Assembly (NCBI GenBank): GCA_037176885.1
Contig: JAWWNJ010000029.1
Span: 1,364,001 to 1,428,000 of the forward strand
From: Favolaschia claudopus
Lineage: Eukaryota > Basidiomycota > Agaricomycetes > Agaricales > Mycenaceae
DNA: 64,000 bases
Reading direction: 5' to 3'
In this document: one piece after another, positions 13,400 to 41,671 of the stretch
Numbering within the stretch: position 1 is the first letter of the stretch
Layout of the letters: every line of letters starts with the position of its first letter
Position numbers and translations under genes: made by a program
Notes under the pieces: model-generated
Told to the model about the DNA's origin: nothing
What the model saw: only the letters and a program-made list of their open reading frames with translations
Database searches by the model: none

Positions 13400-13774
13400 A
13401 TAGAGAATGAGAGAAGGATAGTAGAGAGACAGAGATGGGTAGGAAAAAGAAAGGAGAAGAGCGAGAGAGAGAAAACTTATTATGATGGCTGATGGTGGCT
13501 GACTTTGCCGAAACACGAAACCCATATTGCAAACTAGCAGTTGTGACTTGTAGTTGTGACTTGTATCTTTCTACTCGTTATACATTCATGATACTTGTAC
13601 AGTTTTGCAAATAGCTGAAAGAGCCGACAGCCAGACTGCGAGCTAAGTGAGATGCACGAAACTGTAGCGCACCAACACCTTAGCGTTGTAGGTGTATTTA
13701 GCAAGCGCAGAGCTGAAACGGAGTACAGGTTAGCATACAGAGTACTTGGAACCTGTTAAATCGCACCGGAGCAA

Positions 13775-15503: not shown

Positions 15504-15614
15504 GGTAGATGTTGATTGGATGACTTGGAGGGACCTGCCTTCGCGTTCGACATGAAAGTTGAGAGAGAGAATAGAGATCAACAAACAAACAACAACTCTC
15601 TCTTCGCGTAATTC

Positions 15615-19800: not shown

Positions 19801-22176
19801 CAAGATCAGTTGACAGTCTATTCGGGAGCAGGAAAATGTTACACACCCCCGTTGTGTCAATGTCCACAATGGACTCCACGTCATAGGTATTGTCTTCCTC
19901 GTTCGAAGGACTGCGCACCGCATTGTCATGATCTGGAACCGAAACAGGAACAACAGACTCAGATATAAGGCGAGACGATAATACAACAGGCGCCTGCTCA
20001 GGTTGGAGGGGAGCAGAACCGGTGCCGTCAGATATAAGACGCGATGATGACGGTACAGCGGTACGCTCTACAGGCAGAGGGATGGCTATCAGCACATCTT
20101 TCATAGCGACATCTTGGGGTGCTGCATGAGAGACGAGTGGAACAGTGGATTCAGCTGTTGTAATAGCTTTCTCCCCGCCAACAGTATGCTTTGAGATCGG
20201 ATTAGACTGTGAACTTTGTGAACGTGCCAGGAACTGCGCAAACTTAGGACCGTTAGGGGGATGATGAATCCTGAGTATATTTGAGCAACTCGTAAAAGTA
20301 GAATGGAATTGGGAAAACACAGACCATGACTCAGAATCGTCGACCTCAGTGACCTCGTTCTGACCATCCAGCATCACAAACCACACAATCTGCAGAAGTG
20401 TAAACACAAAACCGAAGCCGTAAAGCTGATCTTACCTTCCCATTAACCACTTGACGTTTCACAATACTATCCACCACATGCTCGAGGTAGGGCCCACGAA
20501 CAGGAGGAATTTGTGGAAGCGCCACTGATGCAGGGACAGACTTCAATGCGGTATAGGGCACGTCGGCTGCAGTTTGACCTGCTTTGATTTGTGCTTGTGC
20601 CTGACGAAACTCGTCTTTGGTTATCCGGATCAGGTACTTGTTGCACAGATTCCGATGCCACTCATAAAAGCGCCACCAGCGATTCATCTCAACAGCCTGG
20701 TGCGTGATATCGAAAGGAGGAGGTTCAATAGTTTTAGTTTGCCCGTCGTCGCTCCGGTAAGTCATGCGCTGCATGAGGTCGGTGAGCGTGATATCAATTT
20801 GGATTCCAGAGTGAGTGAGAGCATTCGCAAAGGAGTAAGCAGCCTCGCGGGCGAGCCGATTGGCTTTTGTATCAAGACCACCAAAGATCTGGGTGCTAGA
20901 CGTATCGGTGAAGTGGCGCTGCTCTGCCTTAGCAGCTGACGTGCTGCCGTAGTTCCAGAAATTAGTCGGAGGGCTCATTGACATAGATCCAGCACGAGTT
21001 GTGGCGACACGACTAGGATACGAGACATACACCACCCGATTGGGGCCAGCAGCATTGACAAGCTTGTTGACGTCTTCAACAGCAACAGGAGGGGTGGTTG
21101 GTGCGAAGCCAGAGTGAAGATCATTGCCACGGAACACAAGAAACACAATCCAAGCATCAGCTTCCCGGACATAGAGGCCGCAACGACCAAGGCAGAAGGC
21201 ACCGGGATCACTGCCTACACTGACAGTCAGCAGTAGTAGAATTGCGAAAGGGATTAAGACGCACCGGGCGGTAAGTTGAGCAGCATCGTAACTAAGGTCC
21301 ACCGCGTCCAGTCATCCCCAATATCTGTATGCCATGCGCCTTGATGAGAACCAATGAAATGAGCGAGATCGAAGCCGTCTGACGATACATTCATCTGACA
21401 ACTAGTACATCCGGGGAGTAGGCCGCCAAAGGAGACGACATTGTTCAATTCAGAATGGGCTTCCGTCACTGCATGCTCAGACTTGGAGATGGAACGGGGA
21501 ATGATGTAGCGTTGGATGGCATGTAGGAGCCGCAACACCTCGCCGATACGTTCCGCAGCCTCAGCTGTGGATGCCTGGACTGCGGGCATCACCACTCCCG
21601 CACCCTCACCCTCACCCTTGGTTGTTGCCAGATTATACGATCCATCAAACGAACCGGGGGGGAGGTCCCTCGCATCAACTGAACGATCATTGCGCTTTAG
21701 GCCATGTAACGTATATATCGGCTTCATAGCAGGATGTCCCGCCTTGGCCTCGCAACCAAAAGTGGCATCCCGCAGTCGCAGAGAAAGATCTTCGAGGTCG
21801 TCTGCAATATCAGGATATGCCTCACGGATCGAGTCCAGAGTGTGAGCGCATGCCATGGTAACGACTTCATCGGGTCTACCCTCGATATGCTGGACAAAGG
21901 GGACGCTGCCGGGCATTCGTATCATGCCGGAAATGGGATCGACAACAATCTTCCCGTCATCGAGCCGAGGTATGACATTGGGAGGTGTTTTTGTTTGAAG
22001 AAGACGAGAGCGAAGGATGCCCTTCTTCGATGGAGTGAAGAGAGTGACATACGCTCTGGAGGCCACATAAACTCCTCAGACCAGAGATCCGGTTTGTCTT
22101 CGATTACAATGTCAGGTCTACCGTACAGTCGAGAGATGGGCGGGGTCCATGAAGCTAGGGAATTGTCAGGGCAGCA
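16795..22176 (-). CDS. TET/JBP-like 2OG-Fe(II) dioxygenase fused to chromodomain and large unknown domain
   Basis: Giant minus-strand gene, well over 1,600 residues. The dioxygenase domain lies in the two exons at ~22066-20440. HTD in GAWHTDIGDD gives the first two iron ligands, DLHSGF the distal His, and PNRVVYVSYP a 2-oxoglutarate-binding Arg. An intron (GTGCGT..TGTAG, ~21268-21220) splits the domain after LLNLPPG. A linker follows, then a chromodomain split by an intron: YDVESIVDID, then WRVRWKDYGPEHDQWKTY (~19895-19725). The last exon (~19675 on) encodes ~850 residues with no domain I can name, ending in motifs such as GFGALFVEHLLCKV seen in other agaricomycete hypothetical proteins. TET/JBP proteins oxidise 5-methyl pyrimidines, and chromodomains bind methyl-lysine histones. 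A chromatin-targeted DNA or RNA oxidase is inference. The 5' end is unsure: the frame shifts near 22066, and an upstream exon (SRLYGRPDIVIEDKP) probably belongs. Confidence 0.78.
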
Positions 22177-22544
22177 TTTAAGGTGTAAAGGCGAACATAC
22201 GGGAAGAGGATGTGGTAGTGGGAGCCGTAGCAGTTGCTATTGACGCTAGTGGAGTTGGTTGAGCACTTGAAACAATTATAAATGGTGTACTACGCACCAA
22301 TGTACCGATTGTCTTCGTTCGGGTCCTAAAGATTCGTCTCAAGAGTCACAAACTGGCCTGAATTTGCGCTTAACATCGTCAACGGTCATGGGGAAAACAT
22401 GCGGTACCAGTATTCAAAGGGGAATCTGTTGTTAAGATTTGAGAATTAGTGATATTATAGTGGTGCTAGCGCTACAACGAACGTACTTGGAGCCCTAGAT
22501 GTAATATAAAGACTAAATGTCCTGGACCTACCCAGGTTGCCCGG

Positions 22545-22580
22545 TTGTCTTTTTGCGTGGAGCCACCCACCCACCTAGCA
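22545..22580. repeat. Left 36-bp inverted repeat of candidate KDZ element
   Basis: The repeat reads inward TTGTCTTTTTGCGTGGAGCC followed by ACCCACCCACCTAGCA. The partner at 41284-41319 differs at one base. Confidence 0.75.
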
Positions 22581-25500
22581 GAACCCTGTTTTACCCCCCA
22601 TTTTCCCCTCCTTTCTACATGGAGACTCTCCTCCTGGAGTCAGCCAGCCCTCTGGCGTAGGTAATTTTTTTTTGCTGTTGGCCGAGACCGGCGCCCCTAC
22701 TTTGCCGTTGATGGATCTTTCTCGGCAGGTGAGCCATCTCTGACACTTCCTGTCAATCACATCAGATCAAGTGGCGATACGATCTACTTGCTTGGGCTTT
22801 GAGCCATCTCCGTCTCACTCTTCCCTCATACCCCCCTCCTCCTCTTCCCTCTCCTCTCACATCATTGTTCACCATGTTGAATCCCCTACGCTTGAACACT
22901 ACAATGAGGATCTGAATCGACACGTCACTCACTTCAATTTACATGCGGTAAGCGGGCCGCCACTCCGTGCGGCATGACTCGTACTTTTTATTTTTCATTT
23001 TAACAACTCGAAAGTTCTGGCTGCAAGCCCAAACCTGCGCAGCAATCCTTCAATTAGTATCCCCAGGCTTCCGCAAATCTGAGTATCAGTGCGATCTGAA
23101 CTTCAGCGAAAAAGGCGACGCGTCTTGGACGCGTCAGTCATGTGGTGTGTGACATCATCAGTGACCTGTATCACATCCCTTCTTTCCTGGTCCGTCTTCC
23201 TTCATCTTGGGGCTTGTTCTGCTTGTCCCGTCCCCCGAAGCGCATATATCCGATCCCGGACAACCCATATGGCTTACCAACGCGTCCCACCCCGCTAAAA
23301 CACGTTCAATCTCGTCGATATCGTACAGAATCTACTACAGATTGCAGCGTCTCCTAGATTAAGTACCACGCAAGTACTTCAGTACCACATCTCCGACCAA
23401 TATTCGCCGAGCTCACTCCTTCTGGTTGGTTGGCTTCTGATGTCTCCCTGCTTCGTGTTGACTCAAACCAGGGACAAGGGCACCAGGCATCGGTGTGGAA
23501 TCCTGTTTCGCATGAAGGTTGATTTGCTGATGCTATGTGCAGGCTCAGATACACTGTCTCAAGTTTACGTTTATCTGCTAACAGAATACCACTAGGTATG
23601 CCGCTATCTTTGCTTTTCGTTTGGGCCGGTTTTCACTTTGTTTATGCCTTTCTGCCCAAACTATGTGTCCCTCATTGCCAACTTTGATCATCACGCAATC
23701 GGCCCTTGAAATCCCATGCTGCAGGATTCAGAGATGCGGAGTTGATTTTGGTTTCAGGTTCGTTTCTACTTTTATTTCCTCTCACCCTTCTCCTTTCTCC
23801 CCTTTTTCTTCAGCCTCTCCAGTCTTTCCCTCATCTAATCTATATCTAATTCCTTTTTAGCCTCGCATTCAAATTTGGTACGGCCGTCGCCGTCACCGCC
23901 GATCCAACCACCTACAAGCTCGATGTCTTGTCCTCTGAGATTTCGGCTTCCCGCAAGCAAGGATTTCAGCTCCGCGCCATCCAGGTGCGTGCATTGTATT
24001 GTTATCAAAGGTTTTCCTGCGCTGATTTGAGGGCCGCTTTCTTTTGTTCTGTTAGTTGCACGGCGTTCGCACCAACCAGATGCATCGAATCTGTCAAGTC
24101 GACAAAGTTGAAGCAAAATTTGTTCGCTGCGCGACTGAGTCGGTGCGTGCGCTACGCTCTCTGTTTCCTTTTTATTACTAAATAATCCCTTCTAATGCCT
24201 ACATTCATTCTGCTGCAATGTCCACGCCTTCCACTTCATTCAAGATATGATTCCAATGTTCACTTTCTATAGCGTTGATCTGGTGTGTTCCTCTTTTTTT
24301 TCTTTGCATTCTAACAGAGTCAAACTACGATCAGACTCGATTGCGCGAAGGAGCGCTCTCGAGGTGAAAAGGACACCCCGAGCTCGAGTCAGTGTCAGTA
24401 ATTTTACCTTCTTTCCTCTGCTGATGCGACTCTGAGCGGTACAAAACTGCGATATGCGTCAGTGTTAGACGTGCATATTCGTAAGTGAAATATCTGTGCC
24501 AACTTCACAAGCGGGTCTAATATATGTCTCAAAGTGTGATTGAAGCCAACTACCGGGGCCATTTTGATACAATTTGTCGCCCACTGCCCAGGTGATCATT
24601 GACCTAGTGAGTTATCGATTCTTCCGAGTCAGCTAGAGCCTAAGTCATATATACAAACAGCAACAGATCAATGAGCCAACCTTCGATGGACGACAACGGT
24701 GCGCGGCTCCTCAGTGTTATTCTAGCTTGCATGTGTATTATAGTACCCTGATTACATTGCATTTTGCTGAAATTGAACGTACGCGACCCAAAAATCAGTG
24801 GTTCAACCAAAATCAATTAGCGCCGGCGCGCACTAAGTAATTTGGAGTGCTTTGGGCACTAATTTCCCTTCAAAAAAGGGGCACTCACTATTCACAGTGT
24901 CAATACGATCGGAATCCCTCGAACTAAAGAAAATGTTGTTCAGCTACTGATTCACACTTGAATAGCTTCCACGGAAGAGTTCAAACGGAAATTCACCTTA
25001 GAAAACTTGATTTCAAGACGTGATGCTGAAACTCAACCAAAGCTGAAGATGAATTCTATCACTTGACTACTAGATTTTGCGGGACAACAAGGAAACTGAG
25101 CGCGACTCGAGCTCACAGTTGGGTTCTTGTTGGATTCCGGACGACGGCGACAAGTTCCGAGAATCGGTCACCACCACATTGATTCAGAAGTAACAACAGA
25201 ATATTTATTGAACTTCCAGGCTCAAAGCTCGCTCGCCGGTCGCCGCTTGCGCGTCGACCAGCTCGCACTGAGTCAACGTGGCCCTGGGTTTTTGCCGTTA
25301 CCAATGCCCTGGATCCTAAATCAGATGTCATCAGATGTATCATCAAATTCGTGGGAGAAAAACGCGTTTTCCTTACAATCTAAAATGCGGACACTGATGC
25401 AATCAAAAATTCGATTTCCTCATCCTGAAAAACGAAAAGAACGACTACTTAAAAGTACTCGTAACACGTGACCCAATTGACGACCAAATTACCAAGTCCG

Positions 25501-25728
25501 TTTTCTCACTACAACCAAGTTTCGATATTAATGACCTCTTCTGTACTCAGTCGCATTCCTACGCAGTACCTCGCGCAAGATGCATAATGACTTAGTTCGA
25601 CATAATAATCTACTCCGACCCAAATAATATACCTCGACACTATACGAGCTTGCCGCCATGCTCGGGCAACCTTCTAATCTACTTTGTGCCCTCCACGTTC
25701 ATCCTCACTCTTCACCTCCACTCCGTAT
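22581..25728. other. Region without confident gene; possible relic exons at 23.86-24.4 kb
   Basis: Two plus-strand blocks look like spliced exons: 23865-23983 (AFKFGTAVAVTADP, SEISASRKQGFQLRAIQ) and 24057-24141 (LHGVRTNQMHRICQVDKVEA). They are joined by a GTGCGT..TTAG intron and followed by another GTGCGT donor. I do not recognise the family, and no start or continuous downstream frame is clear. The rest has only short frames, so it may be decayed cargo of the surrounding element. Confidence 0.35.
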
Positions 25729-28352
25729 TCACGCCCGTTCCTTCTTCTCCACTTCCACCAAGCCCTTCAGCATCCACGTCACATCCCGCACCGCCTCCGT
25801 CCACTTCGCCAAACTCTCGCCCTCTATCTCTTTGTATCTCAGTCTCCTCCCCCACCAAAACAAACTCGCCACCAGGCTCAAAGCGCCGTTAGGTCCAGGA
25901 AAGCGCAGGGTCGCCCAATCCTCCACTCCCCCGCCTCCATACCCATCGCGCAAGAAACCGGAACTTGTCGCGTTCGGCTTGCGCCACACAGGTTGCATCC
26001 CGCGCCACCAGCCCCACCAACCATCGCTGAACGATTCTGTGTCTGATAGGGTAGGCCCAGCACCACCCCCCATCACACCCCCTCGCACGCCTCTGCCCGC
26101 CTGCACCCATGCTGTCACCTGTGACGGGCGACCTTGAGTTCGGAGGCCCTTCGCAAGCACGCGTTTTTCCCATTTCACCCACTGATATGCCTCCTCGACG
26201 GCGCTCAACGACGTAAGCAGCGCGTTGAAGTCCTCCCCCAGCCCCTGTCCCGTCACCTCAGCGTATATTTCCTTGTAGTACTCGGGGGCCCCAGCTGGGC
26301 ACGCGGGTGGCGGCGGCGGCGGCACCTTCTCTTGCGCCCCGTGCCCACTGCTTCCCGCTCCTCCACCATCATCTGGCCGTTGCTCGCGGCCGGTAGGCTC
26401 TTTCTCGCCTCCTCCGCTCGGTGCTTTAGCCGCGCCGCCGTTCTCTCCCTCAACCGTCCGACGCCCCTCCCCGCCTTTGGCCTTCAACGCTTTATCCCCG
26501 GAGCCGCTCGCCGTCCCAGTTTTAGCCGTCGTCTTAGGGCGAGGCCTCTTTTCCGCATCCTCCCCGTCTGTCACACGAGTCTTCTTCTTCGCCCCCTCAT
26601 TGGTCGCTTCCTCGCGGGCTCTCTTCTTCCCCTCATTCGCGTTTCCACCTTTATTCGGCTCCCTCTTCTTCTTCTTCCCGTCCTCCGCCACCGCCTTCTC
26701 CTTCCCTTTTCCTTTTCCCCCCTCGGCCGACTTTCCCTTCCCCCCAGTCAGAGCTTCGCCCTTGGATTTCCGCGACTTTTTCGTCGCTTTGGCTCTCTCT
26801 GACGCCCTTGACCTCTCCTTCCGCACCTCGACCTTCTTCTTCGCACTTTTCTTCTGAACTCCCCGCACGTCGACCCCTCCGCTGCCATTGCCAGCCTCAT
26901 CTTCCGACTCCGAATCAGAATCAGAATCTGAATCTGAAGCGCTATCGCTGGCGCTGCCGCTCTCATCGTCGGTGTCGTCGGTATTATCTTCGTCCTTGCT
27001 GTCGTTCCCCCAATCGTCCACCGGGTCGAAGCGGTATTTCGCTCGAGCGAGCGGATCGTCGTCGTCGTCCTCGCCATCGTTGGGCAAGGCGGCCTCAGCG
27101 CACTGAGCAGGGGCTAACAGACGCGTTGTAAGTTTCATGCTTGCGTTCGAGCAATAGCGATCACTTACTGTACGCAGTCTTTAACCATTCCCTCATAAAC
27201 TCAAGCACATCCTGCCCAAACCGAGCCTTCCCCCACTGCGGAAAATGGCAAGGGGTCGGCTCCTGATTGCGTCCATACGCAACCCTGTGATACCTGTAAG
27301 TCCAGATCTTTCTCCGTCTCAATAAACACTCACGTTAAAGTACGCAGATCACCCTGGTACATAGGAATCGGTCCGCCGAAGACCGCGAAGCAAGACAAGC
27401 CAGTGTATTCATGAACCCCCTTGAATACCTCCGTCATAAAGGTCCCCAGGTTATCGATACAGCTATCGAGTTCGTGTCAGCGGCAGCACATTCAGCAACC
27501 AGATCACTCACGCCTGCCTATCCTTCGGCGCCCTCGATGGCGGCCCTTTCATTAATTCCAGGTACTCGCGCCGCAGCTCGGCCGCCTCGTCCTTCGCTCG
27601 CTGTGCCAACTCGTCTCGCTCCGAGTCCGACAGCTCCTTAAAAAGCTCCCTCGCCACCTGAGCTCGAAACGGCGCGTTTGGTGCCTTGCCGGTCTTCAGG
27701 CTGCTCACCCCGTCCTCCTCTACCAACTGCGCCTTCCAACGCGCCTCGACCACCGGCTTGATGTCCGTTTCATAGGACTCGTGCATATATTGCTGGAAGC
27801 CCTGGCGGGCTTTAGGAGGCGCTTTCACCCCGGCAAGTTTTGCGAGGAGAACGGCCCACGGATCGTTTGCTCGGTTGCGCATCGTCGGTCGGCGAAGCTT
27901 TTTTGCACGGTACTTAAGCCAGCGGTTTATTCGCTGCCGCAAAGAATTCAATCCACATTCCCGCACGACACCAGATCAAAACCTCGACGTACCGCGTTCA
28001 AGGTCTCCACGCGCGCCCTCTTGGCCTCTGTCTCGGCCGCATCCAATTCCTCTACCTCGGGCGCCGCCATCGGGTCGTAGTCGGGCAGGGGCTCCTCCGG
28101 TTCCTCGTCGTCAGCCACACGCCAAGAGATTCGCGCGTGAAACTCATTACACACGTCGCGCACATAATCGCGCTCTGCGCGCCATCCCCGCTCAAGCGCG
28201 TCGGTGTATCCAGCTAGATGGGGCAGCAAGATTGACTCTCTGGCCCCTTCGGCCCACATTTTGAGGTTGCGCCTGTCCTTTTTCTCGATACGGGTCCACG
28301 TTCTCTTTCGCGGCCGCTTCCCCTGTTTTTTTGGGCTCTTGTTCTTCGCCAT
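25729..28352 (-). CDS. Agaricomycete hypothetical protein with HMG-like helical module and acidic/basic tail
   Basis: Minus-strand gene with Met at 28352 and a strongly basic start (MAKNKSPKKQGKRPRKRT). The first ~130 residues include NLKMWAEGARESILLPHLAGY and WRAERDYVRDVCNEFH. The next exon (27950-27508) holds KARQGFQQYMHESYE and ARELFKELSDSERDELAQRA, whose spacing of aromatic and basic helices recalls an HMG box, although this is inference. Short exons at ~27480-27190 (including FAVFGGPIPMYQGDLRTL and YHRVAYGRNQEP) lead to the last exon from ~27138. That exon has an acidic Asp/Ser run (~26890-26970), a Lys/Gly-rich low-complexity stretch and a Trp-rich C-terminus (WWGWWRGMQPVWRK). I know this protein type from many agaricomycete genomes without a function. 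It lies inside the candidate KDZ element, divergent from the first hybrid-binding-domain gene. Confidence 0.7.
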
Positions 28353-28576
28353 GGGAGTGATTCGTCGCGGTTCGTCGCGGTGGACTCAGATTAGACCGGC
28401 AGTTACTCACCCACGCCTACGCTTACGCGTCAGCCATCAATCAAGCGTCCACCCGCAAGTCTGGTCCCCCAAATCTTATCCCATTTGGTGTCATCTCTCG
28501 ATAAATACCTCTCGCCTAACGCAAACAACATCCCTTCCATCTTCCTTTGCCCATCTTCCTCTCCCCTTGCCTCGCA

Positions 28577-29215
28577 ATGACCACCGTTCCTGCTTTTGCC
28601 GCCGTTCAGGGGATGCGTAAGAACTGTTCTCCGTCTCTCATTACTCCTTCCTCATTGCATTTCCCAGCTGCTTGCTGTGTAGTTCTCCCAGCATTCACCG
28701 TCGTCGCTCTCCCGGTCGTCATCGTTCCCTGCTCCGGCCTCGCTGTCGCTGCCGCGCCTCCCCCCTCTGCTCCTGCCGTCCCCGCTCCCTCCACCAAAAA
28801 GGAGAAGGAGGTTTCCCCCAAGGACCCTCCGGCCAAAGAATCCGCCAAGACTCCGCCGGGCGCTGGTCTCCCCGCGCCCCTCGTTGCCCTTCTCCGCGAC
28901 GCCGCTCCCTTCCGCGCCAACGAAATATACTCCACCATTCCCTCCGACCCCCTCCTCCCCATCGAAGAGGAAACGCCCGCCCCCGAATGGTACGCTATTC
29001 TCCGAGGGAGGTTCGTCGGCGTCGTCGATGAATAGTTAGTACCTCTCCCCTCTTGTCCAACAACATCTCGCTAACTATTCCCTTTATTCAGTCTTTTGTC
29101 CGACTTCGCCATCACCGGCGTCGCTCGGGGCGCCCGCAAGGCCTACGACACTCAGGCCAACGCCCTCCGCGCGTTCAACAAGGCGCTCACTTGGGGCGGC
29201 GTGGAAATTCTTTGA
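28577..29215 (+). CDS. RNase H1 N-terminal (hybrid-binding) domain protein
   Basis: Three exons. ATG at 28577 (MTTVPAFAAVQGM) is followed by an intron with a GTAAGA donor and TGTAG acceptor. A Pro/Ala/Lys-rich exon then ends in WYAILRGRFVGVVDE. A second intron (~29035-29090, GTTAGT..TTCAG) leads to LLSDFAITGVARGARKAY, TQANALRAFNKALTW and a stop at 29215. The C-terminal ~55 residues fit the RNase H1 N-terminal/caulimovirus-P6-like fold: W-Y-x-x-x-x-G-R-x-x-G-V at the start and A-Y-x-T-x-x-x-A-L-x-A-F at the end. In RNase H1 this module grips RNA/DNA hybrids. No RNase H catalytic domain follows, so the protein would bind, not cut. It is a cargo gene of the candidate KDZ element and is divergent from the HMG-like gene. 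Confidence 0.72.
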
Positions 29216-30487
29216 CGGACTTCGGCTCTCTCTCTTTCTTTCTTGCCCGACGCACTCTTTCCTTTCATTCCTTACCCTACATACGAACAAAAAAAAACCC
29301 CTCCAAATTTCATTTCTTCCTTTCTCTACCTGCGTTGGACTACTCGTAGTATAGCGTAGCTCTTTCTTTACCTCTGTGTCCCGACCTCGAAACGTCATGA
29401 ATCCTACCCGCTTGTTGCCCTGGCTCCCCCACTTCCAATCTCCTGTGGCCCCCAGTAATCGATATCTCGCCTAAGGTCAAATTTTTCTCTATAGCCGACA
29501 ACTCTTCAGTTGCTGCCGGCCAATCAAAGGGTCTTTCCGGCGCCCGAGGCTCGCGAATCACTTCAACCAATCTCCCCCTTTGGGCTCGGTGCGATTTTCA
29601 CCCGTTCAGCTGAACCACAACTCACCGCCCGTCTCTCTCTCAGCCTACCCCTACATTTCTCCGGTCCTGTCTCCTAAAACTAAAGCTCATCTGCAATCCC
29701 TAAGGCCAACATTCGTTGTGAATTGGACACTTATTCCGCTAAGAACTGGACCAGTGAGTTGGCGCCGCCCATGTCAGGCGATGTCCGACTACACCGAATG
29801 CTTCCGCGATGTTTTCTCCGTTCTTTTCGTTCCACGGAGACATTTGCCCGTGTCCTTGGCACAACGTGCTGCAGCGTTGCAAGGAAACCACTCCCCCGGC
29901 CTTCAACTTGCACTCCGCCGAAATTGGACTGGCTGTCGCTAAGAACTGGTCCCCATCCAAACCCGCAAATCCTCCCCAAAAAAATGGGGAGAGGATCCCA
30001 TTATTCCGTCGGACCGTTCCGCGGCACCTTATCGCGTTCCTGTCACAGAAACACCACCCGTTGCGGACAAAGTCGCGCCATTACGCATCACTGATCTCCC
30101 GCTCGCCTAACATCCACCGCCCGCCCGCCCTCTCTTTTCCGACCCAACCCGCCTTGCCCTTCCGACCTTTCCTCCTACCAAACCCTCAACCGCCCTGCCC
30201 CTCTCCCTGCGCAGACCTCAACGCCGGCACCGACGTCATCTAAAATTGGACCAGATCTCGCTAAGAACTGGTCTCTGAAATTTCCATCTTTGGCATCATT
30301 CACGCCTGTCGTCCACTCTTCACAATTTACTGGTTTAATTGCATGAGCTGCCGGTTCACCTTAGTTCGCCTTCACTTCACGCCTAAACACCCCGGCTCGT
30401 CCCTCCCCGACAACGACAATCCTTTTTTTTTGGGGGGCAACCGGCTCTTTTCGCTCCCTTTTTTCCGGAGCTCTCCCACTCATTCAA
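29216..30487. other. Intergenic with three copies of a split motif
   Basis: No gene seen. Three plus-strand copies of AATTGGAC, then 8-9 variable bases, then CGCTAAGAACTGG (CCGCTAAGAACTGG in the first) occur at about 29718, 29922 and 30242, each about 29 bp long. They may be protein-binding sites or transposase subterminal sites. Confidence 0.6.
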
Positions 30488-31726
30488 ATGTCGGCGCTTC
30501 TGGACGCTTCTACCATCAGCAAGCCTGGACCAATCCCAGCCTCGCTCATTGAGTCAGTCATTTTTTGTCGATTCTCGTGTTTTGCCGATCGCTATCGGCC
30601 CATCTCATCTCCTTCCTCCATACCCTCCTCCACCACATCGCCCTCGATGCCCTCCTCGTCGTCTCTCGATATCCGCGCCCTAGCCGACGCTCCCGCCCCA
30701 GAAATTGCCAACGCCATTCCTGACCTGACCTCCGCCGAACTGCGCAGCCTGCTCAAGCACATCACCGACGAACGTCTCAAGCCAGTCGTGCAGCTCGTTG
30801 GCGCCGCAGCAATTGCGGCTCAGATGGACCCCGCTGTGGCCAAATTGGTGCGCGCGGCCAATATCTTGCCTTCGTCCTCTGCCGCCTCTGCTGCGGCCAA
30901 CATCTCGCCTTCGTCCTCTGCCGCCTCTGCTCGAAACACGATGTCTCGCCCCGCCAGCGTTGCCGGCGAGACCCGGAAAAGCGCTTCTCGCGCCAAGAAG
31001 ACCCAACCCCGCTCATCCTCGCATCTCATCGTCGATATTCACTCTGGTTTGTCACCGTCTTTCTCACTGTGGTTGTCCATCCTCACGCCTCCTTCAATTC
31101 CAGACTCTCCGCCTCCTTCTCCGGCGACTTCGCCACCATCTACCCCACTCCCCGTTCTCCGCCGCTATCATTTCACCACCCCCGAGAGAAGCGGTTACAC
31201 CGATGACTGGCACGAAGCGTGCGCAATCACGTCGAAGAGTCCCCATTCGTCGGCTTACCTTACCGGCGCCGCTCCTGACCTTACTTGCTACGTTCTCTTG
31301 CTCGGTGCCCCCGATGTCGGAGTGTACGACAATATTACACCGCTGAGAGTCGCTGTCGAGGACTACCCCAACGCCGTCTACGCCTCTTACCCCACTCGAG
31401 CGGCCGCCGGGGAGGCTTGGGCCTACGCTCTCGCGCAGGGTTGGACCGGAAACTCCATCCCGCTGCGCCTCCCCGCCCCCAAGCACACCGAACCTCAGCC
31501 CGCGGCCACCTGCCACCCGCCGTCGCCGCTCAATACGGGCACGAACTGGTATGTCGTGACGCGTGGCGTCAACCCCGGCGTCTACGCCTCTTACTTTGAG
31601 TGCAAGCTCAATATTTGGAACGTGCGGGGGGCCAGCTTCCTAAAGTACCCAACCCGCTTCGAGGCGGAGACTGCGTATGCGACGGCGCTGGCCGCAGGAA
31701 ACGCCGAGGTTGTTCTTCGCAATTGA
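30488..31726 (+). CDS. Protein with two RNase H1-type hybrid-binding domains
   Basis: Reading frame from ATG at 30488 to the stop ending at 31726. The N-terminal third has a helical segment (DLTSAELRSLLKHITDERLK) and a Ser/Ala-rich linker with a short internal repeat (NILPSSSAASA / NISPSSSAASA). The C-terminal half carries two hybrid-binding-like modules. The first is YVLLLGAPDVGVYDN to YPNAVYASYPTRAAAGEAW. The second, closer to consensus, is WYVVTRGVNPGVYASY to FLKYPTRFEAETAYATAL. A possible in-frame intron (~31048-31105, GTTTGT..CCAG) would remove a low-complexity stretch. As with the neighbour at 28577 there is no nuclease domain. The two genes look like paralogues of an agaricomycete family. 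Binding to RNA/DNA hybrids is inferred from fold similarity only. Confidence 0.72.
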   Translation: MSALLDASTISKPGPIPASLIESVIFCRFSCFADRYRPISSPSSIPSSTTSPSMPSSSSLDIRALADAPAPEIANAIPDLTSAELRSLLKHITDERLKPVVQLVGAAAIAAQMDPAVAKLVRAANILPSSSAASAAANISPSSSAASARNTMSRPASVAGETRKSASRAKKTQPRSSSHLIVDIHSGLSPSFSLWLSILTPPSIPDSPPPSPATSPPSTPLPVLRRYHFTTPERSGYTDDWHEACAITSKSPHSSAYLTGAAPDLTCYVLLLGAPDVGVYDNITPLRVAVEDYPNAVYASYPTRAAAGEAWAYALAQGWTGNSIPLRLPAPKHTEPQPAATCHPPSPLNTGTNWYVVTRGVNPGVYASYFECKLNIWNVRGASFLKYPTRFEAETAYATALAAGNAEVVLRN

Positions 31727-32510
31727 CATCCGTCTCTACATACGCTCGCGTTTTCTGTACTCACTCTGTCCAATGCCTTTCTTTCGTGATTTTTACGAAT
31801 GCTTGTTTTCCACCGAACGCTTCCTTATACACGCCTCTCTTTGTAACGTCGAATACTGTTGCTATTACAATGCAGTAAATGAGCTCCCCTTCTTTCGCAT
31901 TTGAGCTGTCCACAAAATATCGACGAACTTCAAGTTGTCAAGATTGGCCAGGATTCAATGATGTTGACGATTAGGTCGCGATTTCACCTCAATTGTGTCG
32001 ACGATTGCAACTGGCGATGCCTGAACCACACTTGTACAACCCTCAAATGCTCCCTGGGTCAAAATCGATTTTTTTTTTGGATGAGTTCAGAATTAACAAG
32101 ATTAAGGGTAAGGCGGCAGTGTTAGCTTGACCCTCCAATCGTTCGAGTGGTGAACACAACCTGCTTAACTCCATCACTCATCCATCCTGCCGCAAAACGA
32201 CTAATTAGCATCAGGGCAGTTGCTGTTAGACACCAAGAGCCTTATTGGGGCGCAGAGACAGTGTTAAACGTCCATTTCGCCGCTCACCCCTATCTCAGCC
32301 ATGACGAACTGGACAAGTGCAATGTTTTTGCTTTCCTCGTCTCTTTCCCCTCTCTCTCTCGCTGTCCCTCGGCACCCTCGTCAACCCACACTCACCGCTG
32401 TCTCTGACGGGTCCCAATTGCCCCTCACCGTCTTGTATCGCCGCAGGTCGCGCCGACGAAACTCGGGCGCATCAGCACCGCCACAGCCAACCTCCCCTCT
32501 CGTTACCACC
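31727..32510. other. Intergenic, no gene recognised
   Basis: Only short frames without family features. The stretch probably contains the 3' untranslated region of the preceding gene and the promoter of the next one. Confidence 0.5.
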
Positions 32511-33221
32511 ATGCCCTCGTCTCCCACCATCCCGCCGGAGGCTCTGGCCGCCAGCGCGGACCTTGCGTGGCAGTATCGCGAGCGGTGAGTGGTTCTTGAC
32601 CATCTCCGTCTTCGTACTACAGGCCTCTCCAACTTCGCCACCGCAGCCACCGCGAGATTATCAACCTCAAGGCGAAATTGAGAATGCGACGGTGAGTTGT
32701 CCCTCCCCCTTGGCCCTTCCCACCCCTCACTTGGTCTCCTTCACATAGAAAGCGGGAGGAGATCCGCCACGCCTCATCTGCTGTGAAGTTAGAGCATCGT
32801 ATACGGGAGCGCCATTATCGGCGCCGGTACCGCGCGTGAGTGCCTCACCGGATCCCGCTCGTTAGAATCTCACTGGTACATACTCAGGCGTCGCAAACTG
32901 GCGCTCACGCCCGCCGGGAGGCGCCAACTATTATTATCATTAACGGGTGGGTCGGAGAACGAAGGAGATTCGGATTCGGGAACTACGACGTCGCGACGGG
33001 GGAGGCCAGGACACAACGAGGAGGACATTGAGCTCGCCGCTAGCAGGGTGAAGTTTTGCCCCTGTCCGCGTTTCCCCCCTTCTCTGTTGCCTATGACCTT
33101 TCATCTGGCGGTGATAATCGCCGCCTTGTACATACGTCGACACTTGCTCTGGTCCTTGCTTTTACATGATACGAGGTTTGCTATGGCTATGCTTTTAGAT
33201 ACTCTCCGTTCCTTTGAATGA
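32511..33221 (+). CDS. Small basic coiled-coil-like protein, agaricomycete accessory family
   Basis: Four short exons. ATG at 32511 gives MPSSPTIPPEALAASADLAW and QYRER. Next come EIINLKAKLRMRR, then KREEIRHASSAVKLEHRIRE and RHYRRRYRA, and a final exon with RRKLALTPAGRRQ. Introns begin GTGAGT at 32585, near 32692 and near 32836, and each ends in CAG or TAG. The protein is extremely Arg-rich and helical, with a Y-R-E-R pattern shared by small agaricomycete proteins of unknown function. The reading frame runs on to 33221, but the last ~60 residues look like untranslated sequence, so the end may be earlier through another splice. Nucleic-acid binding is plausible from charge only. Confidence 0.55.
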
Positions 33222-33344
33222 ATGGATGTTATAATTGGATGGATTTTTTCAAGCAAAGGACGCCAATGAGAATTAAAAAATTGTATTATAGCAAGGTTAA
33301 CGACAGTAAGCAAAGAGCGGTATTAAGGGCAGGGAAAAGGAAAA

Positions 33345-34981
33345 TTAAACGGCAGATAGAGACCGGAAGTCTAGTACAAAGGGTTGAGGCCACGTGTATT
33401 TGAAGTCGCGTTTGCCTGTAGGTAACGTCGAGGAGTATGGGAAGGCGCGGATAGCGCGGGTGTGGGCCTCACGGCGAAGACACTCGCGTGCTGAGTGCTC
33501 GGCCTCCGTAGCACCGACTGCGAACGTCGTGTCGTCGACCTCGCGGTTCTCGAAAAATCTGCGGATCCCCCCTCCCGTCCACTGAATCATCGAATACCTT
33601 GTCTCCCCCGGTCTCACAGCGACAAACGAATACCGAATGAACGGTGGAATCAAGATGTTGTCGCCGGGGGCGAACCAAAGTACCCAGCCCAGATCCCATA
33701 GAATAATCTGTCCCCCGTGGGCGGGGTCGTAGTCGCCCAGAGCGGTGAGTACCATCCAGGTGCTGGGGTCGTATGTGTACGGCAGACCGCGCTGGTTCGT
33801 GCGACGGTGCGGACCGCCGAGCTCGAACGTGATGGCGGAGTAGTCGCTGGTCTCGCATGGAAAATGCGCCAGCGGGTCATGCGCGAGGAGCTCGCGCTTC
33901 TGACTTTTGAGAAGGCGGGATGTCTTCTTGCAGTAGGTGTCCACAAGCCCTGCGTATTGGGTGTGAGCTGAGAGGCAACGCCGATATTGTATTCGTACCT
34001 TGGCCGAACGAAACCAAGCGCTTCATTGCGACGGTTGACAGCAGGTTCATGGCAGCCAGAGCGTCCTGCGCACGATCCCTGGGGTCTCTGGGGATTGGTA
34101 CGGCGGGGGTCTCGCTCGCCTACACGAAGAAAGGGTCGTCAGCATGACAGAACCGATGCGAAATGCACAGACAACAGACCTTTGGCTCATTGAAGTAAGT
34201 GCCGACGCCAGTGCTCAGAACAAGCGGATCTCCTGCCCCCGTGCGCGAGCGGAGGGCAGCCGCCTCCTCATCGAGCTGCGCATTGACCGGTTGCACGATC
34301 TCGGGCATCCAGGCATATCCCTGCGCTCGACCGCACATGAAGAGGACCGCGCGGCGCTGCGCCGCGATGACGCGGACTTCTCTGAGGACAGAGAGGGTAG
34401 AGTTAGATTGAGATGAGAGATGAGGGGATATATAATAGAGGCACTGACTTTCCAGTCCAGTGAACTTGCCGCATTCGGAAGCGCGAGTCAGGTCCCGCGA
34501 CCTCCGCTAGAGAATAGTCACGGTCTTCGATTACGCTGAAGTCGAAGTCGTCTGAGGGGTCGCCAACGTGCACCACATTAGTGGGGGAAATACGCTCCAG
34601 TCGCAGCGCCATCACCGCCTCCAGTAGGCGGATATGTCGCTGCTTTCGCAGGGCGGCCATGCGCGCACGTTCGCGTTGTTGCTTGGTGTCGGGGACGACA
34701 ATGCGGACAGGCTTGTCGGAGCCTGGGGGAAGGCACGTCGATTCTCGGCCAAGGTGAGGTTCGTCAGGTAAAGTGCAGCCCGTGAACGGAAGCGATGGGT
34801 CGTCGACGGCGAGAACGTCGTGCAGGCGCTCCTCAAGATCAAAGTCGAAGTGCGCGGGCTCGGTGACAACGCGAGGGTCGATGCCTGAGATTTCGAAACG
34901 CGGGATGAGAGGCGGCGGAGTCACCTCGGCGACGCGAGCGAGGGTGTAATTTAGAGAGCGGCGAGGGAAGGGGGGGAACAT
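33345..34981 (-). CDS. TET/JBP-like dioxygenase homologue with altered iron-binding residues
   Basis: Minus-strand gene with Met at 34981 (MFPPFPRRSLNYTLARVAEV). The N-terminal exon holds KQQRERARMAALRKQRHIRL. A middle exon (~34390-34155) includes VLFMCGRAQGYAWMPEI and TGVGTYFNEPK. The last exon (from ~33944) has the jelly-roll signature of fungal TET/JBP-like proteins: TALGDYDPAHGGQIILWDLG, PGDNILIPPF and RPGETRYSMIQWTGGG. Where active relatives have HxD this protein has HRRTN, and where they have the distal His after IPSxxLRH it has IRYSF. Iron binding is therefore probably lost, although the frame is open and the fold residues are kept. The gene lies inside the candidate KDZ element. It could be a non-catalytic binding protein or a decaying copy. 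Confidence 0.72.
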
Positions 34982-35406
34982 GGTGAGGGAAAGACAAAAA
35001 AGTGAGATGGGGCGATATTTTGGAATGACGAGTTTAAGTGCGGTGAGAGACCTAAGGTCAGAGGCAGCGTCCCAATACAGCTAAATCGGGGAGTGAATCG
35101 GGCAGACGGGAAAATAGCCCTGTTTCTGAAAATGGGACCTTGCACGCGTTGTGGTGATTCCCAATTCTCGGGTAGCGCTGACGAAATTCCACATTGGGAT
35201 ATCGCAATGGGACTCGCTTAGCTAGCTCGGTCATGGCAGAGCCGAGCCGGTACGAGCTGGGTCGTTTGAGATGCTGGAGAGATCTGGGGAAACAATATAT
35301 AAGACTCAAGAGGTGGAGAGGGAAGGGGAGCAAGCGCACTTGCCTCTGGGTTTTTTTTGTCGCCTCGTCTTTCACCGTTTTCGTTATCTCTCTTCCACTC
35401 GCTATC

Positions 35407-36910
35407 ATGAGCGCCGCTGCCAGAGCCACCGACAACACTCCTGCTGCCGACCCCGCCCCATCCGTCGCCGGTGCCGATGTTAATATGACCGACGCCGCCA
35501 AAGGGACTGCCGACGGGGTGAACGCGACCACTGGTATGTTTTTCTTCGATTGAAGCCGTTCTATACGAGGCTGACGATGACAGGGGATGCAGCGGACATT
35601 GATAAAACCCTGGTTGACGAAGTCACGAGCACCATAGCAGCCTCCCCCGCCGTCGACGCCACCGACAACACTCCTGCTGCCGACCCCGCCCCATCCGTCC
35701 CCGGTGCCGATGTTAATATGACCGACGCCGCCAACGGGACTGCCGACGGGGCGAATGCGACCACTGGTATGTTTTTCTTCGATTGAAACCATTCTATATG
35801 ACGCTGACGGTGAGCAGAGGATGCAGCGGACATTAAAAGAGCCCTGACCTACGACGTCGTGACCACCAGCGTGATCTCAGGACTTCCTGTGTACGTCGTC
35901 CAACCTGCCTTACGTGTAGGCGTCGTGCTAACTCCGACTCGTTCCAGCGTGCAAAAGGGCAGGCTCGTCGGTGGGTGGCGTCGCAGGCATCTCGAGCAAG
36001 AAGATCCGGAGCACGCAAACGCGGAGGACGATGAGGAGGTGTACGCCAGGACCGGGGCCTCCTACGACATCTCCTGCTACGCTTTCCGGGCCTCTCACGA
36101 GATGGATGTCTTCCATGCCGAGCAACGGGCTAAGAAGTGGGATTGGTAAGTCGCAGTCAGGTATAACCATGGCGGTGAGCTCACTTCAGACAGTCATACT
36201 GACTCCGACGACGACGACGAGTTGTTCGACGAGGGCCCCAAGCTTGAAGACATCATCATTTGGGACGGCACGAGTCCCGAGAAAACCGCCCACACGACGA
36301 CCGATGCAGGGGCTTGTGGCGGACCAAGCCATCGCCAAGGCTTTGCGCGACGACAGCGCCGAAGACGTTCGCACCGGGAAGAAATGTGCCGCGCAGGCTG
36401 TGAAAAGGTATGGGCAAAATATCGTGAAGGATACATAGCCTGACTGACGCACCAACGACAGCAACGAGGAGTCGCCCTTCTTCAAGTTCGTCCCAGCTTC
36501 CCTGATTGTTGCTGAAGAAGACGACGACGAGGACGATGCCAGCCTGTATGGCGTGGAGCGTAGCCCGATCCCCAGCCTGCAGTCCGCCCCCCCCCAGCCC
36601 GATCCCCGACCTCAACTTGGGTGAGCGCATGGCGGATGTAGACATGAGTGCCGCGAGTAAGACTACCGCAGCCCAAGCGGCAGAGACCCATGTGGTGCAG
36701 GTGAGTTTGGGTTTGGTGACGTGTCTTTCGCGTTCGGTGGTACTAAGGGAGCGGCAGCTGGTGAGAATCGGCGGCTTTCGCGAGGTTCAGTGCAAGTGTC
36801 AAGATGGGAAGCACTCGGAGTTTCGCTCTCGCAAGACTTTTGCGTTCGAGGCGTCCAACGGGACCGTAGTTGTGAAAAAGTTCTTGACGATGGTCGTGGC
36901 CCTGAACTGA
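35407..36910 (+). CDS. Acidic hypothetical protein with duplicated first exon
   Basis: Met at 35407 (MSAAARATDNTPAADPAPSV). The first coding unit (ATDNTPAADPAPSVAGADV to NATT) ends at a GTATGT donor and is repeated nearly word for word 233 bp downstream, intron included. Later exons encode DDEEVYARTGASYDI, FRASHEMDVFHAEQRAKKWD, DSDDDDELFDEGPKLEDIII, then NEESPFFKFVP and EEDDDEDDASLYGVE. The final exon (~36778-36910) ends FLTMVVALN. The protein is strongly acidic. The exon order after ~36280 is uncertain because two frames compete. I do not recognise the family. Position inside the candidate KDZ element, and divergence from the TET/JBP-like gene across ~425 bp, suggest it is cargo. Confidence 0.55.
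35425..35850 (+). repeat. Two-copy tandem duplication, 233-bp period, spanning an exon and its intron
   Basis: The segments starting at 35425 and 35658 agree over about 190 bases: first the exon, then GTATGTTTTTCTTCGATTGA, then GATGCAGCGGACATT after the intron. Both copies keep frame and splice signals. Confidence 0.9.
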
Positions 36911-37291
36911 GGAGGTCGGGGAGCGTGGGGTAGAGAGCTGAGCAGGGGTACGGGTTCGGTACAATAGACGTAGGGCGTTGTTGCATGTACATTGGTAGTG
37001 GTAAGTAGAGCAGAGGCGGGAAAAGCTCCAAGTACATTTTCTCACGTTCGGTATTATTACGTTATGCAATCCCATCCTCGTTTTTCCTTTGTTTCTGCGG
37101 GAGTTGAGCTCTCTTTCACTTGTTCTCTGTGCGCTCCTGTCTGCGACTGGCGATGGTATCTGCTATCTCGGCTTTCCCCAATAGGCTGCGGAGATGTGAC
37201 ACTTGGGTTTCATCTCGCAATTCATTGGACCCTCATCCCACTTTCCTGAACTCTGGACTTTCGATTGGAGGCTGGCTACTCTACAAGACCA

Positions 37292-40200
37292 ATGACTTCC
37301 TTGAACGTATCTCCTACGCGTCCCGGCACACGTTTTGAGCGGAATGAATCGTTCGTGGAGTTCGAATCACACATGGGCGACACCACACGCGACACGGAAT
37401 TTCAATTATCGCAGGACGGGCGGCGTGGACACCGCATTTCCGTCAATGTGCAAGCTAAGAGGCGAAGGCTACATCCGTCTGAGTTGGAGGACGCGTTTGC
37501 TGGTTGGGTGCCCCTGCGCGAGGATGGGAATGACCTGGGTTTGGATGGCGGTGCGGAGGAGGAGGAGGACGCGGAAGGTGCTGCGGGGGATAAAAGGAAG
37601 CGATATGTCAGTTCGGTACGTTTGGGACTTGTTCTGGGGGCGCGGCGCGTCTGACATGAGTGAGACGCTTAGGACGATCCAATGAAAGTATGGCGTCCGA
37701 TGGCCAGTTTTTTTCTGGACGAGTTGCTGAGGAGGGAGCGGTTGGGGGATAAGGCGAGTACTTGCGCCTGCTGCTCTGCTGCGCTGGCGGACGGCGACGT
37801 TCGGGTGCGATGTCAGGATTGTGGGGATTTCGTCCAATGCTCGGAGTGTGTGATCTCGAGACACGGGGTTATGCCGCTGCATTCGGTGGAGGTGAGCAGT
37901 TTTGTTTCTGGCTTTAATGTAAGGATGGCTAACGGCTTGTTGTAGCGGTGGAATGGTAGATATTGGGCGAGGACCTCCCTGGCGTCCTTAGGGTGTGTCT
38001 ATCAGCTGGGGCACGGCGGATTCCCCTGTCCCCATCCCGCCGCCAAGGAGCGGGAGATGGTGGTCATGCACTTTCCAAACATTCACACCGTCAGGTACCG
38101 GTATTGCGGATGCGATGTCTCTGACCGCGCAAACAATCTACAGCAATTGTTGAGGAACGGTTGGTATCCAGCCACCACTGTGGATCCGCGACCTGCGCCA
38201 CCCTGGCGACGTTGCGGATCTTCCGTTCACTAAACGTGATTGGGAATATCACGATTCATGACTTCATCAAGACTCTTGAGCGGAGTTCGGATGTGGCAGG
38301 TCTTCATTCGGTGCCGGTGCGTTAACAGCAACTGAGGGGTGGTTTGTGAGTCTGACTGGCAGAAGGATCGGTACAAATCCTTTGGATTGATGTCTCGTCA
38401 GTACGCCTTTCTCAAACGCCTGATGCGGGCGGGGCGGGGCCACGACGACCGTGGGGTAGATGGAACGCAGCCGGGAGAGTGCGCCGTGTTGTGCTGGGCT
38501 TGCCCGCACGACGGTATGAACCTCCCGGAGGGGTGGCGGGATGTTGCCCCAGAGTTTCAGTGAGTCGAAATTGCCATTACATCCAGGAGTGGGATTCTAA
38601 CATGCTTGAAGGTTCCTATTTATTCTAATCGTAGCTATGGACGCAAATTATCGCCTGCGTAATCGCCTGCGCCTTAATGAAAAAGATGATCCCCCTCTAG
38701 GGTCGGGTTGGGGGTATTTGGTCGAGGAGACAGAGTATCACGAGCACCTTCGCGGTTATGTAGGAGAGGAAGATGTGAGTAGATTTCGACTGACTGGATT
38801 GAGGTTCGCTGACAAGACGGTGAAGGTTAGTACTTGTGTGGCTTTTCAGGCGCTATTGCAGAAAGATACCCGGGTGACAACGGGCTTGCGATGCTCCGGC
38901 GTCGGGGGCGTTGTGTGCGCTCGCCATGAGGTGGTTCGACCCCAGGGTATCGGTGACCTTCAAAAGGGTGAGAGGTGAGTGCTGAGGCCTGGAGTGAGGT
39001 TGTACAACACTGACGAATGGTCCTAGATATGCGAATATGGATTACGTTTTGCTGTCGTCGCTGTTGGGCATAACGGCGATGTTCTTGGCTATTTCGTACG
39101 ACATTGCATGTCAATGGCGGGTGAAGTTTCCGCAGCGGATGAAGGAGATGCCGGAGAGACTCAAGTTGGATCTGGCAAAGATTACCTTGTTGTTTGCGCT
39201 GCCGGTCTGGCATGCGGCCGCGCACGAGCGCTCGTGCCAGGTTCAGAATTCATTATCGTATACGGTGGGGGTGGGGCGTACTGATGGTGAGGGAGTCGAG
39301 CGTGTGTGGTCGAGGCTGAACCCTCTGGCTTGGGCGACGAGGGAGAAAGGGAGGGGTGCGCGGGCGGACACGATCGAGGATGAGGTTGATTACCTCAATT
39401 TCGAAAAGAACATCAATCTGGGTAACAGAGAGAGTGCTCATCTGTGGGTGCTTGTTACTGACTACATCGCCAGGTACGACGCTTCCGCGAAAGCTGGTGG
39501 TAGCCATCGACGAACGCGAACGCCAGGTGGCTGGATTTAAGCAAGTCGACGAGACATTGGACAATGAGACGCGGAAAGAGTGGCAGGCAATAATCGACGG
39601 CTGGCAGCGAGATCGGACGTCCAAGAATCCGTATGCACCAGCTGATGAAACTCGAGGTTCGTGGATTAGATTGCGCGGAAGCTCGAGAACGTGCTGACAG
39701 TGAGTTATATGGGGGGTCAGAATTCTCTTCGGCTGCGATTCGTGTGCAGTTGGCGCAGGAAGAGTTGGACGAGGCCGGCGCCGGCGAGGGAAAGCTGCAT
39801 GCGACGAGCATGAGCTCTTTTTTGGTCGCTGGTCTGCAGCTAGAGACCCATCAGTGAGTATTTCTTGCGGAGGCACGCACTTGGATGAGCGCTGACTGGA
39901 TATATAGATTGCGGATACGCCGGGAACTGAAAGGCCGGCCGCTCCTGGTTGGCGACCAGAGCGAACGTGTTTCGCAGCTGCGGCGGTCGTTTTTCGTCAA
40001 GTTGGGGCGGTTTCGCAAGGTGCAGGGGCTGTACATGCCTGAGGCCGCGGACCAGTTGTTGGAAGACGAGGAGCGGCGGGATCCGGAGCTGATGCCGCCT
40101 CTTGCAGAAGACGTCAAGATATACTTGCCATCCGAATTACCGGGAAACAGGAGGGAAGGTTGCTCTGAGAAGCTGAGGGAGAGGGAGGCGCGTTTACGGC

Positions 40201-41004
40201 GCGGTGTCCTGACTGACAGCGTGGCGAAGCTTCGCCGGTCGCTGTTGGCCAAACGGCATCTGGTGGACTGGCGAGAAGGGGCGGTAGGTCAGCGGGGGAC
40301 GACCCGAGCTGCAACGTTGGTTCAGCGGGTTGATGAGAGGATTGATGGGCTGACCAAGGCCTACAAGCGCTCGCGCGACGCGCTGGTGGCGCTGGTGGGC
40401 TTGGGAGACTGTGAGTGGAGGGAGTTGCGTGCGGAGGATCTACGTGTGGAGGAAGAATTGGAAGATGACACGGTGGCGCGGCGGAGATTGGGTCTGGTGG
40501 GTTCGCAATCGCGGGAACGGCGGGTTTCGAAGGCGGCAGGGAAGAGGTCAAAGGACAAGGACAAGAGAAAACACAGAATGTCGTGGATATGGACGAGCGG
40601 GGGAGGCCCGGGCCAGGATGAGAAGGAATTGAGAGACGGTAAGGAGCAAAGTATGAATGAACGCACTTGACTGATTTTATTGGCTAGCTGTGCGAATTGA
40701 GTGGTCAAAGGCCAAGGCCCGGAGGGATCGGTGGGTTGAGGAGGTGCAGCTACTGCGAGAAGAGATGCGGAGGGTGCTCCGCTTTTTGGCGTGGCGGGCT
40801 GGGTGGTGGGAGGAAAGGGCGGTGGTGGAGCGGGAGGTTAGGCAGGAACTGAATGAGGGGGCGCAGGCGTACGCCGCTCGCCAAGCGGCGATGACGCGCC
40901 AGATTGGGCGACGCTTCAGGAGCGCGTGGGACACTTCTGCCTCGGAAGCGGTGCGCGCCGCTGTTGAGGAGGATCGTGCAACGGAAGGGATTGGGTCAGC
41001 CTAG
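37292..41004 (+). pseudogene. KDZ transposase with CxC2-type cysteine cluster; one frameshift
   Basis: DDE transposase of the Kyakuja-Dileera-Zisupton superfamily. Met at 37292; the N-terminus holds KRRRLHPSELEDAFAGWVPL. The cysteine cluster (CACCSAAL, RCQDCGDFVQCSECV) is followed by LGHGGFPCPHP and RYRYCGCD. The core has AMDANYRLRNR (first Asp), SYDIACQW (second Asp) and GRTDGEGVERVWSRLNP (Glu), so the catalytic set is present. The C-terminus is coiled (ARRDRWVEEVQLLREEM) and ends at 41004. Introns are readable, including 38310-38363 and one of 51 bp after EED that restores DVSTCVAF. After NGWYPATTVDP the frame breaks at 38187-38191. One base is missing, and the expected family sequence (TCATLATL..) continues in another frame up to the next intron. 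This copy therefore cannot encode the full protein unless the base is a sequencing error. Confidence 0.9.
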
Positions 41005-41283
41005 ATCATGCTCTTGTGTAGAATGAGTCGTGAATCATTGTATTTAAATTGCCTTTTTGAGTACCATGGCGTTGTGGCACCCGATAAAGAAAGATGTCAA
41101 GAATTGACACACTTCGATGACAGCTGATCGCCGTGACAGCTGTTCCCCGTGGTTGGATGCCGCCACATATCATTTGTGGGTGATGCGGACTGTTCGCCGC
41201 CAGTGGGGCCTTGGTTAAGGTATGGGTCGCCATGAGCATGGCTAGAGACAGGAAAAGAGTTAAAATACCAGGGGTTTTTGGCT

Positions 41284-41319
41284 TGCTACGTGGGTGGGTG
41301 GCTCCACGCAAAAAGACAA
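41284..41319. repeat. Right 36-bp inverted repeat of candidate KDZ element
   Basis: Reverse complement of 22545-22580 with one mismatch. It lies 280 bp past the transposase stop codon. Confidence 0.75.
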
Positions 41320-41671
41320 TTTACGTTTAGGCTAGAGCCTGGTAGGAAGTCTTTACTTTACTTCCAGTGTTGGGAGGCTGGGGAGTATACGGTGCCAAAG
41401 AGGCGGGTTGTTTCTTGGACAGGGATGGAGACTCGTGCCATGGGTGTAGAAGGTAAGGTTTTCACTCCGCAAAATGGATCGTGGACTTATAAATCAAAGC
41501 AGAGTAGATGTCTTATCCATTTCGATTACACAATGTGGCCAACGCTTTGCGATTGACAATGTCCTTATTTAGACTATCAATCGTGACTTGTTTTTCTTCA
41601 CTTGTTGACGCTTCAACTGTACCTTGAACTGCCACCACCACCACCAGCTTGCTTTCCACTCTGCCACCGCC

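Follow-up and report, generated by a model that had tools for sequence, protein, structure and literature searches.

Evidence for a large multi-gene KDZ transposon in Favolaschia claudopus whose cargo includes a TET-like protein with an altered metal site

Introduction

Do the genes that lie beside a KDZ transposase gene in the genome of Favolaschia claudopus (Mycenaceae) form one mobile unit with it, and what could such a cargo do? The question is raised by a 64,000-nt stretch of this genome (the window, to which all coordinates refer). In it, an initial annotation had placed a bounded KDZ unit of ~19 kb, with a 36-bp inverted repeat at its termini and at least six accessory genes. As a whole, the data are best explained by a large multi-gene KDZ-superfamily transposon with co-inherited cargo, present in the window as a composite copy and encoding a non-canonical TET-like protein, a reading to which we give a probability of roughly 0.8. 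The strongest new point is that the TET-like protein is retained under selection despite its altered metal site.

Ends, size and target duplications of the element

The species' own assembly (264.6 Mb) was searched for related copies, and homology with them limits the KDZ DNA transposon in the window to 22490-41372. The predicted 36-nt inverted repeat is present at 22545-22580 and 41284-41319 (35/36 complementary, 97%; arms 18,703 nt apart). A 30-mer taken from it occurs at 7 genomic places at ≤3 mismatches, all of them ends of sequences related to the window element, against 0 for a reversed-pattern control over the same 264.6 Mb. The 36-mer is not the terminus that it had been taken for, since homology between copies (C36, C242, C274, C10 and C66 compared) continues past it for 55 bp on the left and 53 bp on the right. 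The element is therefore 22490-41372, with GAGCCC as its first and TGTTG as its last bases, and subterminal inverted repeat is the most fitting name for the 36-mer. The ends are composed as follows.

22490..22544, + strand: outer left end (GAGCCC...), outside the 36-mer; common to C36, C242, C10 and others; preceded by GTACTTG
22545..22580, + strand: left subterminal inverted repeat (36-mer), pairing with 41284..41319
41284..41319, - strand: right subterminal inverted repeat, pairing with 22545..22580
41320..41372, + strand: outer right end (...TGTTG); common to C274, C10, C66 and others; followed by GGAGGCT

The ends of ten further elements were fetched, and both were located in 7/10; in the C43, C49 and C37 copies (3/10) no left end was found in the fetched stretch. 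With the C10 copy added to these seven, exact 7-bp target duplications flank 8/8 related copies with both ends located (TTATGAT, CCCCGTC, ACACGCT, CTACACA, GGCAGGT, GGCGTTG, CAGCGCG and ATATGTT), in place of the 8-bp duplication that had been expected. The second copy on C29 and the copy on C6 have near-identical end sequences and different 7-bp duplications. One end reads CAACA and the opposite end GAGC in the 9 copies with both ends seen. In 9/9 copies the two ends are alike over their first 92 bp beyond 300/300 shuffles, whereas the outer 55 bp alone are alike beyond shuffles (≤2/300 as good) in only 3/9, so that this comparison does not support the outer ends as a clean terminal inverted repeat (TIR). 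The complete C10 copy is 16,291 bp long and has the same gene order as the window copy; across copies, the element is a multi-gene unit of 16-19 kb.

The window copy joins two insertions

The window copy has no matching duplication: the last bases of the left flank are GTACTTG, the first of the right flank GGAGGCT. On C274, however, the right element end is followed by GTACTTG, the same 7-mer as in the window's left flank, and C30 and C38 contain an uninterrupted site in which a single GTACTTG separates sequence resembling the left flank in the window from sequence resembling the right flank on C274. This pairing, together with the empty sites, identifies the left end in the window as that of an insertion A, whose right end is the one on C274. 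The right end in the window is that of another insertion, B. Uninterrupted relatives of the right flank are found on C8 and C170. The left flank is repetitive and the relatives of the right region are only 70-92% identical (73-84% for the longer ones), which limits how far these empty sites can be called allelic. Flanks that do not match, and the pairing with C274, rule out a single intact insertion; the assembled copy has its left end from insertion A and its right end from insertion B. Insertion A itself sits inside a large multi-copy sequence (~8000-22489), of which a 99% copy lies on C85 and others on C14, C221, C298, C165 and C180.

As the source of the mismatched flanks, we lean towards a false assembly join. 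A serious contender, at somewhat below even odds, is that chromosomal exchange truly took place between two inserted copies, and the regularity of ends A and B as element ends is what ectopic exchange predicts. Against it, the published genome (265 Mb) is a Falcon assembly with 86.8% duplicated BUSCO genes (PMC10905254), from which both haplotypes are probably largely present; C274, 1.6% divergent from the window across 8.5 kb, starts inside the element, as at an unresolved repeat; and the matching left end of insertion B was not seen.

Gene content and selection

The following genes lie between the ends.

25729..28352, - strand: HMG-box protein gene, 806 amino acids (aa), exons 28352-27993, 27933-27512, 27462-27334, 27293-27169 and 27113-25729
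28577..29215, + strand: HBD1, a small hybrid-binding-domain-like protein, the domain likeness judged by eye only
30488..31726, + strand: HBD2, which has two RNase-H1-N domains (PF01693); its start is tentative
33345..34981, - strand: TET/JBP-like protein gene, 486 aa, exons 34981-34449, 34381-34180, 34119-33999 and 33949-33345
35410..36907, + strand: acidic open reading frames (ORFs) containing a 177-bp direct repeat; gene structure uncertain
37250..41004, + strand: KDZ transposase gene of several exons, with CxC2 at ~37979-38194 and the KDZ domain at ~38622-39399

The identification of the transposase holds, both the KDZ domain (PF18758; 63 and 131 bits, cut-off 26.6) and the CxC2 Cys-cluster domain (PF18803; 75 bits, cut-off 27) scoring above their Pfam cut-offs. 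A count of six separate accessory genes is not supported. HBD2, one of two hybrid-binding-domain proteins in the initial annotation, is confirmed by Pfam (PF01693; 54.8 bits, cut-off 21), whereas HBD1 has no Pfam match. The HMG-like and small Arg-rich proteins listed there as separate are exons of a single gene, two genes being ruled out by splicing and by full-length relatives, the annotated ones covering 93-99% of the 806-aa protein. This protein has no Pfam match either; comparison of structure models suggests an HMG-box fold, though with a Foldseek E above 1. PDB sequence searches with HBD2 and with part of the HMG protein returned ribosomal proteins only, at marginal E. The acidic protein is weakly supported as a genuine gene; the direct repeat in its frames (35425-35600 / 35658-35834, 94%) is also present in C274.

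Ratios of nonsynonymous to synonymous substitution (dN/dS) were calculated by the Nei-Gojobori method with a custom script, mainly between the window and the complete C10 copy, where dS of 0.8-2.1 makes the ratios rough. For this pair, dN/dS is 0.10-0.16 in the HMG exons, 0.11 over 75 codons of HBD1, 0.22 in HBD2 and 0.16, 0.19 and 0.34 in the TET frames; the KDZ exons give 0.05-0.19 where dS is finite, two of them having saturated dS. Four opposite-strand frames used as controls give 0.45-2.17, and a probably non-coding frame at 38356 gives 2.78. Values of 0.67, 0.37 and 0.22 were obtained for the acidic frames (the last of 43 codons) and 0.24 for an unnamed 41-codon frame at 32793. Against C242, part of the HMG gene has a ratio of 0.33, and control frames have 0.69-0.78. 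Comparison with C66 gives the same picture as C10, of which C66 is a near copy and therefore not an independent test, while C274 and C36, near-identical to the window, offer too little change for a verdict, with several frames of C274 at 0.4-0.9. The HMG, HBD and TET exons of the cargo, at 0.10-0.34 against the divergent copy, thus evolve under purifying selection.

A TET/JBP-like protein with an altered metal site

Comparison of structure models, including those of CcTet and NgTET1, recovers a TET/JBP-type double-stranded beta-helix fold for the predicted 486-aa protein. The likeness came from fold comparison alone, as no TET came up in PDB sequence searches that used a TET exon and two TET profiles. 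The initial assignment to TET/JBP is thus supported at the level of the modelled fold, but the active site is not a normal one: PHRR stands at the HxD position and RYSF at that of the distal His. The protein belongs to a YSF-type clade in which the distal His is Tyr in 96 sequences (Tyr defines the group), and the Asp of HxD is present in 0/96. The clade is split from the canonical H.N proteins with 100/99 tree support; its motif is widespread across Favolaschia and Mycena, and the clade is so far restricted to Mycenaceae. Loss of the HxD Asp and replacement of the distal His by Tyr make canonical oxidation unlikely, and from these residues the protein most likely acts without it.

That the protein might still be an active oxygenase removing silencing marks from the element, perhaps through a rearranged metal site, would agree with the published model for transposon-borne TET genes (PMC12730594), with retention of the first His in 76/96 and of the ETR Arg position in 88/96 sequences, and with one locus in the clade that reads RHSF. 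We consider it improbable in view of the missing Asp in 96/96 sequences, the Tyr throughout a group defined by it, and the strongly supported separation from the canonical proteins. Decay into a pseudogene carried along by the element is less probable still: active-site residues are lost and some TET-like copies contain stops, but the dN/dS of 0.16-0.34 against C10, the splicing of the window frame into an open 486 aa and the wide occurrence of the YSF motif in Favolaschia and Mycena all speak against it. A protein under selection that acts without canonical oxidation remains the preferred reading.

Linkage of the cargo across the genome

Both haplotypes are probably largely assembled, so the counts given here are of loci and not of independent insertions. 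Matches in the genome comprise at least 150 for the TET-like protein, the best 150 of 427 candidates for KDZ and 123 for the N-terminus of the HMG protein; five TET fragments, each a second one at its locus, were removed before linkage was counted. Among the matches listed, KDZ and HMG genes both lie within 30 kb at 50/59 of the closest TET loci. A fixed order and spacing (KDZ 4.9-6.9 kb away on the opposite strand, HMG 4.7-6.3 kb away on the same one) is seen at 42 of the 63 closest, with HMG in place singly at 55/63 and KDZ at 48/63; in the other 82 TET rows among the matches listed, HMG is in place at 4. PF01693 gave 104 matches at 67 loci, 60 of them near element genes and 7 not; by chance, ~1.4% of random positions would fall within 12 kb of any of the best 150 of 427 KDZ matches. 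HBD1 was likewise found at 67 loci (one fragment dropped); at 64 of them an HMG-protein N-terminus lies within 2.5 kb, and at 44 a KDZ gene among the matches listed lies within 13 kb.

The assignment of the TET-like, KDZ, HMG and HBD genes to the element is solid. In this genome, the 36-mer was not found mostly without KDZ genes, nor the cargo fixed independently of the transposase. The view that the gene cluster is host sequence and the KDZ element no more than a guest in it can be dismissed, for the same gene set recurs at dozens of loci, each copy has its own 7-bp duplication, empty sites exist, and no point in favour of this view was found. The bounded unit of ~19 kb with cargo is upheld by its copies at many loci, 8/8 duplications, empty sites, gene order and selection; what does not hold is that the window contains one intact insertion.

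In the C66 copy (L030-L031), the block from TET to HBD is inverted relative to the transposase, unlike in the window and C10. A second KDZ arrangement, with TET at 3.7-4.1 kb from KDZ, occurs at 13 loci of the same genome (e.g. C58:1055463), 12 of them without an HMG gene nearby; the one TET inspected there (L088) has the canonical HxD/RHSN.

Comparison with known elements and proposed function

By its published description, the Kyakuja type is nearest to the window element. Kojima 2025 defines complete Kyakuja elements that carry a TET gene, are flanked by 7-bp duplications, have CA..TG termini and lack TIRs, and makes the case that TET works against silencing (PMC12730594). The window element shares with the TET-bearing Kyakuja of Agaricomycotina the KDZ transposase, an internal TET/JBP-like gene, 7-bp duplications, a 5'-CA at one end and, perhaps, the lack of a clear TIR. 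It differs from them in its other end, which is GAG (CTC) and not the TG of 5'-CA..TG-3', in its 36-bp subterminal inverted repeat and fixed HMG/HBD cargo, and in a TET without HxD, a motif treated in that paper as conserved outside the HxE type (PMC12730594). None of the terms HMG, viroplasmin, RNase H and accessory appears in its main text (PMC12730594). TET-bearing Kyakuja with 7-bp duplications are thus already published, and the window element is a new variant.

The experimentally mobile KDZ1-KDZ3 of Cryptococcus (9-11 kb, 139-241-bp TIRs, 4-8-bp duplications, CxC1) likewise combine a KDZ transposase with a CxC cluster, but no such cargo is described in the part of that report available to us (PMC12810828). 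A PF01693 (viroplasmin) gene is also carried by a basidiomycete DNA transposon in Pleurotus ostreatus, where it is a single gene captured by a Helitron and not part of a conserved KDZ gene set (PMC4289320). CcTet of Coprinopsis cinerea (PMC12730594) and NgTET1, to which the modelled fold of the window protein is similar, are active and have an HxD...H iron site, whereas the Asp and distal His are replaced in the window protein. A literature search, with most subscription journals outside its coverage, found no paper on the gene set of the window or on a TET clade with Tyr for His.

For the cargo we infer functions in the service of the element. The transposase would bind the subterminal repeats and insert the element by a cut-and-paste reaction whose cuts are staggered by 7 bp. 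RNA:DNA hybrids or double-stranded RNA are the probable ligands of HBD2, and the HMG protein probably bends or loosens DNA; together, the two would aid transposition or help the element to evade silencing based on RNA or methylation. Possible roles for the TET-like protein include binding to DNA or to modified bases, and targeting. A bolder proposal, which we put forward tentatively and rate as rather less than likely, is that in a Mycenaceae KDZ lineage the TET cargo became a conserved protein without enzymatic activity, which acts at methylated or oxidised bases as a reader or competitor and works with the hybrid-binding and HMG proteins as a built-in module for transposition or non-catalytic silencing escape.

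The published explanation of transposon-borne TET genes is that they erase silencing marks. Retention of a TET-like protein under selection in a lineage where two iron ligands are gone points instead to a non-catalytic role, for which the canonical TETs of the same genome provide an internal comparison. With its ends, duplications, empty sites and constant genes defined, the unit allows hybrid binding, DNA bending and the TET-fold cargo to be tested singly.

Other features of the window

One further sequence interrupts the window copy.

22944..25463, no strand assigned: 2,520-bp insertion with ACA on either side, absent from the C36 copy (99.6-99.8% identical) and outside the element proper

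No clear terminal repeats and no known gene were seen in this insertion. The left flank contains an ORF of 1090 aa (16795-20067, - strand) and further ORFs at 20346-22236 (- strand), with a sub-threshold hint of a chromodomain at 19667-20431 (- strand). A repeat of ~2.0 kb at ~10310-12325 has many copies that are 95-97% identical. To the right of the element, 426-bp direct repeats at 45680-46105 and 47903-48328 are 100% identical and 2.2 kb apart, and perhaps belong to a young short retroelement.
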